Source of the DNA: an uncultured Gammaproteobacteria bacterium
GTDB taxonomy: Bacteria > Pseudomonadota > Gammaproteobacteria > PS1 > Pseudothioglobaceae
Assembly: GCA_913057955.1 (NCBI GenBank)
Contig: CAJXOB010000010.1
Span: 1-35,704, forward strand
DNA: 35,704 bases
Direction: 5' to 3'
Part shown: one piece after another, positions 22 to 27,351 of the stretch
Layout of the letters: each line of letters opens with the position of its first letter
Position numbering within the stretch: position 1 is the first letter of the stretch
The notes under the pieces: model-generated
Database searches by the model: none
The model's input: only the letters and a program-made list of their open reading frames with translations
Told to the model about the DNA's origin: nothing
Position numbers and translations under genes: made by a program

Positions 22-363
22 ATACCTTTCATAAAGCTCATCCATGCGCTTTAATTCAACATCATTTGTGGCTACTAGCAATTTGCCGCACTGATGGAAT
101 GGAATTTGATGAAGTGAGCAGAATTTGATTGTTTCTTTTAACCCTTCTCTGCAAAATTCAGCCTTCAAGCTGCCAGGTTCATAATAAACTCCTGCATGAA
201 TTACGCCGCTATTATGACCCGTTTGGTGACTAGCAAACGATTTTTCTTTTTCAACTAATAGGACTTGTTTTTTTGGGTGCTTTGTAATGAGAGATAAGGC
301 TGTTGATGCGCCAACAATTCCACCACCCACAACAATATAGTCATAGATTTTTTCATCCATCAT
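1..363 (-). CDS. lhgO: L-2-hydroxyglutarate dehydrogenase/oxidase, N-terminal fragment
   Basis: FAD-dependent enzyme that oxidises L-2-hydroxyglutarate to 2-oxoglutarate and passes electrons to the membrane quinone pool. Visible are the Rossmann FAD motif GGGIVG at residues 13–18, the ribose-binding Glu38 after the second strand, and the family block HNSGVIHAGVYY at 50–61. About 120 residues are present against roughly 400 in the family. The frame stops at bases 1–3, but the last few codons lie in a sequence that resembles a Tn5 adapter, so the gene is cut by the contig edge rather than naturally short. An upstream TTG at 381 is in frame, but ATG 363 (or 360) fits the family start better. It lies 26 bases downstream of glaH, whose product is its substrate, as in the E. 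coli csiD–ygaF pair. Confidence 0.88.
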   Translation of the reverse strand: MMDEKIYDYIVVGGGIVGASTALSLITKHPKKQVLLVEKEKSFASHQTGHNSGVIHAGVYYEPGSLKAEFCREGLKETIKFCSLHQIPFHQCGKLLVATNDVELKRMDELYERYLFLIHI

Positions 364-24530: not shown

Positions 24531-25943
24531 TTAATATTTATAAGTCTCTGACTTAAACGGACCTTCTTTAGGAATATTAATGTACTTTGCTTGAGTATCA
24601 GTCAGAATGGTCATCACTCCTCCAAAACCTCCAACCATTCCAGCAGCTACTTCTTCATCAAGTTTCTTTGGAAGAATCTCAACTGTGACATTCGCAGCTT
24701 TTTCAGCATTAGGAAGGTTAGCAAATTTTTTCTCAAAAAGATGCATTTGAGCTAAAACCTGGTTTGCAAAAGAGCCATCCATAATTCTAGAAGGGTGGCC
24801 AGTTGCATTTCCTAGATTAACTAATCGACCTTCAGACAACAAAATTAAGTAGTCATTTTTATTTTCCGAGCGATAGATACGGTGAACTTGGGGTTTTACT
24901 TCATCCCATTTCCAATTATCACGCATATATAAAGTATCGATTTCATTATCAAAATGACCAATATTACAAACTACAGAGCCTGCTTTTAGGCTTCTAAGCA
25001 TTGCTGAGTCGCAAACGTTGGTATTGCCAGTTGTCGTTACAATTAAATCAGTAGTGCTTAGCAATTCTTTATTAATACAATCCATTGAGCCTGTATTAAT
25101 TCCATCAATATATGGTGAAACAACCTCAAAGCCATCCATACAGGCCTGAAACGCACAAATAGGATCAACTTCAGTGATCTTTACAATCATTCCTTCTTGA
25201 CGAAGTGACATAGCAGAACCTTTTCCAACATCACCATAGCCTATTAGAAGGGCTTTCTTTCCTGACATTAGCATATCTGTGCCGCGTTTTATAGCATCAT
25301 TTAATGAGTGACGACATCCATATTTATTGTCATTCTTTGCTTTAGTGACTGCGTCATTAACATTGATTGCTGGAACTTTAAGCTCACCACTTTCAATCAT
25401 CTCTAGAAGGCGGTGGACACCCGTTGTAGTTTCTTCACTGATACCATGAATTTTATCAAGCATTTCAGGGTATTTTTCATGAACCATACCAGTTAAATCA
25501 CCCCCATCATCCAAAATCATGTTGGCATCCCATGGCTTACCATTATGAAGAATAGTTTGTTCAATACACCATAAAAACTCTTCTTCAGTTTCACCTTTCC
25601 AGGCAAAAACTGGAATATTTTTTGCAGCCATTGCAGATGCAGCATGATCTTGCGTTGAGAAAATATTACAAGATGACCAGCGAATTTCAGCGCCTAGATC
25701 TATTAGCGTTTCCATAAGGACAGCGGTTTGAATTGTCATATGAATGCAGCCCATAATTCTTGCTCCATTCAAAGGCTGTTCTTTACTATACTTTGATCGA
25801 AGGGCCATTAAAGCAGGCATTTCAGCCTCTGCTAGCTCAATCTCTTTGCGACCATACTCTGCTAAATTAATGTCAGCAACTTTATAGTCAAGATTAAGAT
25901 CTGCAACTTTAAAACCAGTATTATCTGTTTTTGATTCGCTCAT
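24531..25943 (-). CDS. ahcY: Adenosylhomocysteinase (SAH hydrolase)
   Basis: NAD-dependent enzyme that splits SAH to adenosine and homocysteine, relieving product inhibition of methyltransferases. Visible are [50 protein letters not shown], the NAD-binding [13 protein letters not shown], and the C-terminal [19 protein letters not shown]. At 470 residues it has the approximately 40-residue insert of proteobacterial forms. It is preceded by its own promoter and an SAH riboswitch and followed by a strong terminator. Having SahH instead of the Pfs–LuxS route is common in marine and non-enteric gammaproteobacteria. Confidence 0.98.
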
Positions 25944-25971
25944 TTTATTTCCTGTTAAATTGAAAAAAAAT

Positions 25972-26032
25972 GAGCGTCGTTTTGGTTACCAAGCCTGATT
26001 GAGAGGTATCTCAATGCAACGCTCCTCGGTAA
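25972..26032 (-). promoter_or_regulatory. SAH riboswitch (ahcY leader)
   Basis: Minus-strand leader carries the family's conserved elements CCGAGGAGCG, TTGC, CAGGCTTGG and GACGCTC in order. P1 pairs 26025–26032 with 25986–25993 (8 bp with one G-U). The variable hairpin P2 pairs 26009–26015 with 25998–26004 (7 bp, 4-base loop). The pseudoknot pairs GAGCGT (26019–26024) with ACGCTC (25972–25977), 6 bp. The aptamer sits directly after the predicted start site and 28 bases before the ahcY ATG. In this class SAH binding turns ahcY on. A tract of eight Us follows the pseudoknot arm, then AGGAAA as ribosome binding site. Confidence 0.95.
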
Positions 26033-26039
26033 GTTTGAT

Positions 26040-26068: not shown

Positions 26069-27202
26069 CTATTTTAGTAATCCTGCCCTATCAGTTTTTT
26101 CCCAGCTAATTGAGTCCTCAGTTCTTCCAAAATGACCATAGCTAGCGGTCTGTTGATATATTGGGCGCTTTAAATCCAGCATTGAGATCAAGCCTTTAGG
26201 TCTAAGATCAAAGTGTTCTCTAATCAAGGCTACAATTTCATGGTGCGGCATCTTTCCAGTGCCAAAAGTATCAACACTAATACTCGTTGGCTCTGCAACA
26301 CCAATTGCATAAGAGACTTGAATTTCACATCTTTCAGCAATGCCTGCTGCTACGATATTTTTTGCTACATATCGAGTAGCGTAAGCTGCACTCCTGTCAA
26401 CTTTTGATGGATCTTTGCCTGAAAAAGCACCACCTCCATGTCTAGCCATACCGCCATAAGTATCTACAATAATTTTTCTTCCAGTTAGACCGGCATCTCC
26501 TACAGGGCCGCCTATTACGAAGTTACCAGTAGGATTAATATGATATTGAGTATCATTTGTCAGCCATTTTTCTGGCAAGATTGGTTTTATGATTTTTTCT
26601 AAGACTGTTTCTCTAAGCTCATCAAGAGAAACATCACCATCATGTTGGGTGGAAAGCACTACCGCATCGATTCCTACGATTTGATTGCCTTCGTAAATAC
26701 AAGAAACTTGGGACTTTGCATCAGGGCGAAGCCATGGAATGGTTCCGTTTAGCATTAAGTCTGCTTGTTGTTTAACAAGTTGATGAGAAAGCATGATTGG
26801 CGCTGGCATTAACTCATCAGTAGAGTTTTCAGCATAACCAAACATAAGGCCTTGATCACCCGCTCCTTGTTCATGGTTTTCACTTTCTGTAACACCCATA
26901 GAGATGTCTTGGGACTGCCTACCAAGCAGATTAGTTATAGAGCAAGTATTACCGTTAAAGCCATACTCTTCTTTGTTATAACCAATACTGAGGATAGTTT
27001 CTCGAACGATAGCTGAGTAATCGATTTCAGCATCAGTAGTTATTTCACCAGCTAGGACGACTTGATTATCTTTGACTAAAGTTTCAACTGCAACTCTAGA
27101 ATTGATGTCTTGTTTTAGTGCTGCATCGAGAATTGCATCAGAGATTTGGTCACAAACTTTATCAGGGTGACCAGCAGAAACAGATTCAGAGGTAAATATC
27201 AT
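26069..27202 (-). CDS. metK: S-adenosylmethionine synthetase
   Basis: Makes SAM from methionine and ATP. Visible are the N-terminal [25 protein letters not shown], the methionine/ATP loop [12 protein letters not shown], and [23 protein letters not shown]. At 377 residues it is close to E. coli MetK (384). It is preceded by a good promoter and a leader with a SAM-II-like riboswitch, and an AGGA lies 8 bases before ATG. It ends about 25 bases before the ahcY -10, with no hairpin terminator between, so some readthrough into ahcY is possible. Confidence 0.98.
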
Positions 27203-27226
27203 AGTGCAATCCTTTTTTTAAATTAA

Positions 27227-27245
27227 AAACCATAAAGATGGGTTT
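27227..27245 (-). promoter_or_regulatory. Weak terminator-like hairpin in the metK leader
   Basis: On the minus strand, AAACCCAU (27238–27245) can pair with AUGGUUU (27227–27233) with one bulged C and a CUUU loop, followed by UU and an A/U-rich tract. It lies between the SAM-II-like aptamer and the metK ribosome binding site, so it could be an expression platform. Stem strength is low. Confidence 0.35.
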
Positions 27246-27256
27246 CTAGGAAAACA

Positions 27257-27317
27257 CCAGCTTTAGCTTGTTTTAGTCACCTTAGTGACAACGCTAGCAA
27301 TCGGAACAAATCAGCGT
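27257..27317 (-). promoter_or_regulatory. SAM-II-class (SAM-II/SAM-V-like) riboswitch in the metK leader
   Basis: Minus-strand leader contains, in order, ACGCUGAUUUGUU, GAUUGCUAGCGU, UAAAACAAGCUAAA, which follow the SAM-II core (P1, the U-rich loop L1, and the conserved AGCUAAA). P1 pairs ACGCU (27313–27317) with AGCGU (27291–27295). A pseudoknot can form between UUUGUU of L1 (27305–27310) and AACAAG (27267–27272), with five Watson–Crick pairs and one G-U. An extra hairpin GUCAC-UAAG-GUGAC (27276–27289) is inserted after P1, not present in the minimal SAM-II aptamer. Initiation is predicted at the first base of the aptamer, and the gene product makes the ligand. SAM-II versus SAM-V cannot be settled by eye. 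Confidence 0.78.
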
Positions 27318-27323
27318 AATTAG

Positions 27324-27351
27324 ATTATAATCTTTTATAAATAAATGTAAA
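27324..27351 (-). promoter_or_regulatory. metK promoter
   Basis: Minus strand has TTTACA (27346–27351), a 16-base spacer and a perfect TATAAT (27324–27329). Initiation is expected near 27317, where the riboswitch aptamer begins. It starts 2 bases beyond the ccmB stop. Confidence 0.78.

Follow-up and report, generated by a model that had tools for sequence, protein, structure and literature searches.

The two closest described classes of regulatory RNA are the SAM-II and SAM-V riboswitches. The SAM-II pocket is built from the triples G8-G42-C23, U11-A45-U21 and U12-A46-U20, one of the two U:A.U triples reading the sulfonium charge (PMC3764141). SAM-II transcripts start at P1, and Coxiella and Bordetella are named among the carriers of the class (PMC1273637). 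The crystal structure of SAM-V shows a stem-loop (P3) directly after P1, followed by adenines lying in the minor groove of P1, whereas SAM-II is described as being without P3 (PMC6061858). The SAM pocket of SAM-V superimposes on that of SAM-II. We describe here a metK leader whose core is otherwise that of SAM-II but in which a hairpin occupies the position of P3, as judged from its position directly after P1 and from the AAAA segment that follows it.

Setting and layout of the metK leader

The window, i.e. the whole stretch of 35,704 nucleotides that was analyzed, belongs to the 1.57 Mb genome of a gammaproteobacterium, a sulfur-oxidising marine bacterium. Its MetK shares 97% identity with the protein encoded by an uncultured SUP05-cluster genome and ~80% with the MetK of Candidatus Thioglobus. 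The minus strand carries, in this order, ccmA, ccmB, the leader, metK, an SAH riboswitch and ahcY. The SAH riboswitch, the sole family above threshold in an Rfam scan of the whole window, occupies the same place between metK and ahcY in 19 of 20 relatives. SAM and SAH sensors thus alternate with metK and ahcY in the gene cluster. The features discussed below are as follows, all on the minus strand.

27346–27351: -35 box TTTACA; a TTTACA-like box is present in most of 32 relatives
27324–27329: -10 box TATAAT, conserved in the 32 relatives
27257–27318: SAM-II-type aptamer, 62 nt; best match of the family model R1 (89.9 bits, the window sequence being included in R1 training)
27313–27317: 5' strand of P1, ACGCU, pairing with AGCGU at 27291–27295 (99.4% of cells paired, n=32)
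27307–27312: L1 third strand GAUUUG, equivalent of SAM-II G8, U11 and U12 (triples from PMC3764141); GAUUU invariant in 32 leaders
27303–27304: CC, paired with the GG that forms P2a (91% paired, no double changes)
27297–27300: 5' strand of P2b, UUGC, equivalent of SAM-II U20, U21, G22 and C23; invariant in 32 leaders
27291–27295: 3' strand of P1, AGCGU, from the alignment of 32 leaders
27276–27289: inserted hairpin GUCAC UAAG GUGAC, equivalent of P3; two-sided changes in 5/5 pairs, 95% paired
27271–27274: AAAA segment of L3, conserved
27263–27264 and 27266–27267: AA and GC, partners of UUGC
27257–27267: GCUAAAGCUGG, the 3' strand of P2b with a bulged U, then the 2-bp P2a; GCUAAAG invariant
27249–27257: GUGUUUUCC, 5' arm of a helix sequestering the Shine-Dalgarno sequence; duplex with 27204–27212, p = 0.003 against shuffles
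27225–27247: weak attenuator-like hairpin AGAAACC/GGUUUUU, between aptamer and start codon
27233–27241: CCAUCUUUA, stem end and loop of the attenuator-like hairpin, complementary to UAAAGCUGG of the aptamer
27204–27214: Shine-Dalgarno sequence AAGGA (27214–27210) and 3' arm GGAUUGCAC (27212–27204)
26069–27202: metK, methionine adenosyltransferase (TIGR01034, 581 bits)
25965–26033: SAH riboswitch RF01057 between metK and ahcY (51 bits, above cut-off)
24531–25943: ahcY, adenosylhomocysteinase (TIGR00936, 513 bits)

Read 5' to 3', the leader consists of P1 (ACGCU/AGCGU), GAUUUG, UUCCGAUUGCU, the hairpin GUCAC-UAAG-GUGAC, UAAAACAA and GCUAAAGCUGG; the aptamer elements through GCUAAAGCUGG occupy 27318–27257, and the metK start codon is found at 27202, 54 nt beyond the aptamer. 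The promoter (TTTACA, a 16-bp spacer and TATAAT) matches 11 of 12 consensus bases, about one promoter-like site being expected by chance in a region of such length. The position of the TATAAT box sets the transcript start at approximately 27318–27317, just at P1, which matches the description of SAM-II in PMC1273637. A preliminary description made from the sequence had proposed that the leader follows the SAM-II core order and begins at the predicted start site: all the elements it described are present.

Conservation, covariation and recovery by covariance models

We aligned 32 metK leaders of the same family that contain the element. Pairwise identity across these leaders is 90% in the core columns and 57% in the inserted hairpin. 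Standard pairs are formed in 97.1% of the cells, compared to 91.4% in shuffles and 14–46% when the partners are slid by 1–3 columns, and the whole structure contains 34 double-changed cells versus 10.0 in shuffles (none of 500 shuffles reached as high a count). The compensations seen in the hairpin are G-C to A-U, U-A to C-G, C-G to U-A, and A-U to G-C or U-A. The extra perfect GUCAC/GUGAC stem pointed out after P1 is therefore real, since all five of its pairs are compensated among the 32 leaders. The covariation anticipated for P1 and the pseudoknot was recovered in part: P1 contributes a weak signal, with one pair changed on both sides, and P2b, complementary in 32/32 leaders, does not vary, so that within the family the pseudoknot is neither supported nor contradicted by covariation. 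The outer pair of P2a is broken in 5/32 leaders.

The element, as defined by a match to R1, was found in 74 of 83 genomes of the same family or order (Thioglobaceae/SUP05) and in 47 of the 49 better-quality ones. Several of the genomes bearing it consist of a single contig, and those devoid of it are mostly less than 90% complete. A degenerate aptamer precedes metK in genus G036 (L038:1404–1456, plus strand; R1 12.2 bits), where UUGC and GCUAAAA are retained and GAUUUG is lost. The pattern GATTTG-N2-10-TTGC-N15-45-GCTAAAG occurs once in the window and in none of 100 shuffles; a looser SAM-II pattern has two sites in the whole genome (1.57 Mb), one of which is the metK leader.

The letters equivalent to those of the SAM-II triples (G7, U10 and U11; U19, U20 and C22; G52, A55 and A56 in the 62-nt numbering) are invariant in the 32 leaders, and their spacing inside each strand is that of SAM-II in PMC3764141. 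The aptamer also lies upstream of metK, i.e. in a methionine/SAM-gene context.

The Rfam models recognize the leader poorly. No family is above threshold there, and the best permissive match is to the SAM-II family RF01726 (27321–27253), with 17.8 bits for a cut-off of 44 and an E value of 0.73 for the stretch against 4227 families; dividing by the number of families gives, by our arithmetic, ~2e-4 for this single model. Neither RF00521 nor SAM-V is listed at the leader in the permissive scan (SAM-V even at E 10), and the Rfam comparison proposed in the preliminary description accordingly gave nothing significant. A search of the source genome with RF01726 returned 20 weak matches, from which the metK leader is absent; as this model scores comparably elsewhere in the genome, the Rfam score alone proves nothing. 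At gathering level, no SAM_alpha/SAM-II was found in 20 relatives. The shortfall is probably caused by the inserted hairpin. Moreover, a gathering threshold is a database cut-off and not a structural feature.

By contrast with the Rfam scores, the family's own model argues for SAM-II. R1 is a covariance model derived from the 32 family aptamers only, with no outside bacteria in its training. When applied to 12 SAM-II loci found independently with RF00521, it matched 11 of them in the same place (E 0.0013 to 1.0). Among its 12 best matches outside the family, obtained from searches of 369 and 398 sampled genomes, nine precede metX (L149, L150), metZ (L140), a homocysteine methyltransferase gene (L145), metN (L139) or metK (L143, L144, L146, L147). 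No other evidence speaks as strongly for homology with SAM-II as this recovery of methionine-gene leaders elsewhere. The other three matches (L141, L142 and L148) were dismissed as chance, P1 being broken, GAUUUG missing or a leader context lacking. A second covariance model, R2, made from 12 compact gammaproteobacterial SAM-II, ranks the metK leader first in the window, albeit with 11.5 bits and an E value of 0.11 and with the 3' part misaligned, because compact models cannot place the inserted hairpin; as a detector of the family from outside, it is weak.

Further SAM-II-like sites came to light in these searches. L143, L144, L146 and L147, from two other families, carry a compact SAM-II with a clear antiterminator and terminator directly upstream of metK. 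A SAR86 genome has a SAM_alpha-like match of 19.6 bits (R2 12.6) directly upstream of metK (L051:2860–2928, plus strand), in L043 and L044 the elements are arranged more loosely, as UGAUUU...UGC...GCUAAAA, and L145 contains a second SAM-II-like match (260–311, minus strand, 22.3 bits) ~1.2 kb from the first.

Conservation, hairpin covariation and the recovery by R1 of leaders elsewhere outweigh the sub-threshold Rfam score. They bear out the earlier proposal that a SAM-II-like aptamer containing an extra hairpin precedes metK, and on these grounds the element is very likely a SAM-II-type SAM aptamer. We hold it highly probable that the leader would act as a hairpin-variant SAM-II riboswitch, binding its ligand and switching metK expression. 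The switch class is known, and its hairpin-bearing form before metK appears to be undescribed; a limited literature search joining SUP05/Thioglobus with SAM riboswitches returned nothing useful, an absence that is not proof of novelty. The occurrence of SAM-II in a gammaproteobacterium is not notable, contrary to what had been suggested: among 185 genomes sampled from the GTDB class Gammaproteobacteria (which includes the former beta-proteobacteria), 16 have an RF00521 match above the cut-off, so that SAM-II is common there.

Pairings downstream of the aptamer and the regulatory output

The gap of about 55 bases noticed between aptamer and start codon measures 54 nt to the AUG, and the weak terminator-like hairpin seen in it, AGAAACC/GGUUUUU, is not a good terminator. 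The idea that classical SAM-II elements usually hide a nearby ribosome binding site did not hold: most are transcriptional, many with terminators (PMC6061858, PMC1273637), so the distance to the start codon is no departure from the class.

Duplexes were assessed on leaders taken from correct starts, not cut at ATGGTTTT. The helix GUGUUUUCC/GGAUUGCAC, which covers part of the Shine-Dalgarno sequence, has p = 0.003 in the window and p < 0.05 in 19 of 32 leaders. Other genera retain the pairing although their letters differ considerably (GUUCUUCUU/AAGGAGAAC and AUUUCUUCU/AGGAGAAAU). In an anchored count over 13 close relatives, seven of its nine positions stay paired in every or almost every sequence, and one double change is seen. 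The fold of the platform has a z value of -2.5; RNAalifold gave no consensus for the platform of the relatives, whose lengths vary too much. In equilibrium folding, the unpaired fraction of the Shine-Dalgarno sequence is 0.27 in the free and 0.28 in the bound state for the window (mean of the 32 leaders, 0.21 versus 0.17). Exposure is thus about equal whether the aptamer is free or forced, and equilibrium folding does not reveal a switch; either the decision would have to be made kinetically, or the model lacks something.

A second pairing links the aptamer to the attenuator-like hairpin, whose loop lies inside the antiterminator complement: UAAAGCUGG pairs with CCAUCUUUA at 8 of 9 positions (p = 0.10 in the window alone). 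A CUUUAG(C) complement also follows many other SAM-II aptamers, with p < 0.05 in 19 of 44 leaders, and L145 shows a matching change in this pairing (GCUAAAACG with CGUUUUAG). The same aptamer could thus act by transcription attenuation, an antiterminator formed by UAAAGCUGG and CCxxCUUUA competing with a terminator, instead of by Shine-Dalgarno sequestration. Strong terminator-like hairpins are found at the corresponding place in the relatives L026–L029 and L037. The CUUUAGC element is also present in SAM-II leaders elsewhere, which finish with U-rich terminators, and SAM-II control is mostly transcriptional (PMC6061858). In the window, however, the stem has two G-C pairs and a terminator search found none, obvious terminators are missing from L015–L018 and L020–L022, and the Shine-Dalgarno helix is better supported than the antiterminator (p = 0.003 versus 0.10). 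We therefore regard attenuation as a serious but less probable output for the window species, and termination as likely in some relatives. Shine-Dalgarno sequestration is, on balance, the probable main output in the window species; the two are not mutually exclusive.

The locus combines a conserved structure, the SAM-II pocket letters, the gene context and the potential for Shine-Dalgarno pairing. From this point we infer SAM binding, the direction of the response, the antiterminator step and, in the window species, an effect on translation rather than termination. When SAM is plentiful, it would stabilize the pseudoknot of UUGC and GCUAAA, with the L1 strand GAUUUG in its groove. Held in the pseudoknot, UAAAGCUGG would be unavailable for the alternative pairing with CCAUCUUUA; with CCAUCUUUA left free of this partner, the weak terminator-like hairpin and the outer helix GUGUUUUCC/GGAUUGCAC would form. 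The outer helix would hide the Shine-Dalgarno sequence and metK would be turned down, the product thereby feeding back on its own synthetase. That SAM binding turns metK off is, in our estimation, very probable.

The inserted hairpin and the relation to known systems

The covarying 5-bp hairpin between P1 and L3 departs from the absence of P3 in SAM-II. In our view, that absence is one of the distinctions drawn between SAM-II and SAM-V and does not serve to define SAM-II. By analogy with A40–A42 of SAM-V (PMC6061858), the AAAA segment that comes after the hairpin is expected in the minor groove of P1.

A hairpin is also found in a second family (f108) with genomes of 2.4–7.2 Mb, probably beta-proteobacteria filed by GTDB under Gammaproteobacteria, whose metX-type leaders (L149–L173) are SAM-II by sequence. 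Most are compact and five have a hairpin in the same place: at the junction after P1, L149, L151, L153 and L156 (~1501–1565) carry for instance CGGAAC...GUUCCG or CGAAAC...GUUUCG, and that of L160 is less regular. For L149, metX was confirmed as the downstream gene. Because L149, L151, L153 and L156 share it, we treat the hairpin as a variant and not as an exclusion from SAM-II; its presence in metX leaders likewise indicates that the insert either recurs or is ancient, and is no accident of a single lineage. Since L149 went unreported in the Rfam search, members with the hairpin can be missed by the Rfam models. It is an even call whether SAM-II has a hairpin-bearing subclass that current models do not see and that connects its core with the P3 architecture of SAM-V. 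SAM-II and SAM-V would then be ends of one continuum; P3 would have been acquired, or retained, in Thioglobaceae metK and some metX leaders at the least, and would tune pseudoknot folding.

The likeness raises the question of whether the leader is itself a SAM-V riboswitch, a pseudoknot with P3 that hides the Shine-Dalgarno sequence. The order of the elements is the same, with P3 after P1 and before the A-minor adenines, and SAM-V has a 2-bp P2a (PMC6061858) as the metK leader does. Yet Rfam lists SAM-II and not SAM-V, SAM-V typically lies within ten nt of the start codon (PMC2704228) whereas 54 nt separate the two here, R1 recovers RF00521 sites and none reported as SAM-V, and the present trend of the comparison between the classes favours SAM-II. 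A SAM-V identity is unlikely, and we rejected it on model match and start-codon spacing.

Still less probable is a SAM-II-derived aptamer with a changed ligand, for example SAH or SAM/SAH. Aptamer variants with altered ligands are known in other riboswitch classes, and SAH is sensed in the same operon. In Rhodobacterales, metK is under the control of a SAM/SAH aptamer (PMC4239095, PMC2864571). Against a change of ligand, the tested pocket letters, including those of both U:A.U triples (PMC3764141), are invariant, and a separate SAH riboswitch already serves ahcY. Finally, that the block is mere conserved promoter or leader sequence, as the promoter boxes directly preceding it might suggest, is scarcely credible, as the hairpin letters diverge while pairing is kept, and the core letters, which fit a class of RNA, reappear upstream of other methionine genes.

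The reading as a hairpin-variant SAM-II riboswitch can be set against each known system. The metXZ element of beta-proteobacteria is similar in that a pseudoknot and a terminator are described in metX and metZ leaders (PMC4239095); it differs in being presented there as new. Going by that text description, it is probably SAM-II scored by Rfam near or under the cut-off. With SAM-II RF00521 (SAM_alpha), the metK leader shares P1, the GAUUUG third strand, UUGC, an A-rich L3, GCUAAAG, a start at P1, methionine/SAM genes downstream and a complementary CUUUAG element further on. It differs from it by the hairpin between P1 and L3, the 2-bp P2a, metK as the target, a terminator that is weak or absent in the window species, and a score below the Rfam cut-off. 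RF01726 (SAM-II with long loops; Bacteroidetes, marine) is the best Rfam match and has a longer connection between P1 and GCUAAAG, but the leader falls 26 bits under its cut-off, and the model has a 3-bp pair inside L1 and CUG/CAG as P2a. SAM-V (RF01826) resembles the leader in the P3 stem-loop after P1, the adenines assigned to the P1 groove and the short P2a; unlike the leader, it has a P3 of 3 bp instead of 5 bp and lies within ~ten nt of the start codon, and it gave no Rfam match.

With this comparison, a regulator can be assigned to the synthesis of SAM in the abundant oceanic sulfur oxidisers of the SUP05/Thioglobus group, in a single gene cluster where SAM would be sensed before metK and SAH before ahcY. 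It also indicates that standard SAM-II models lose members with a hairpin after P1. Apart from supplying an architecture between SAM-II and SAM-V, the leader would be a feedback switch of a known and ordinary kind.
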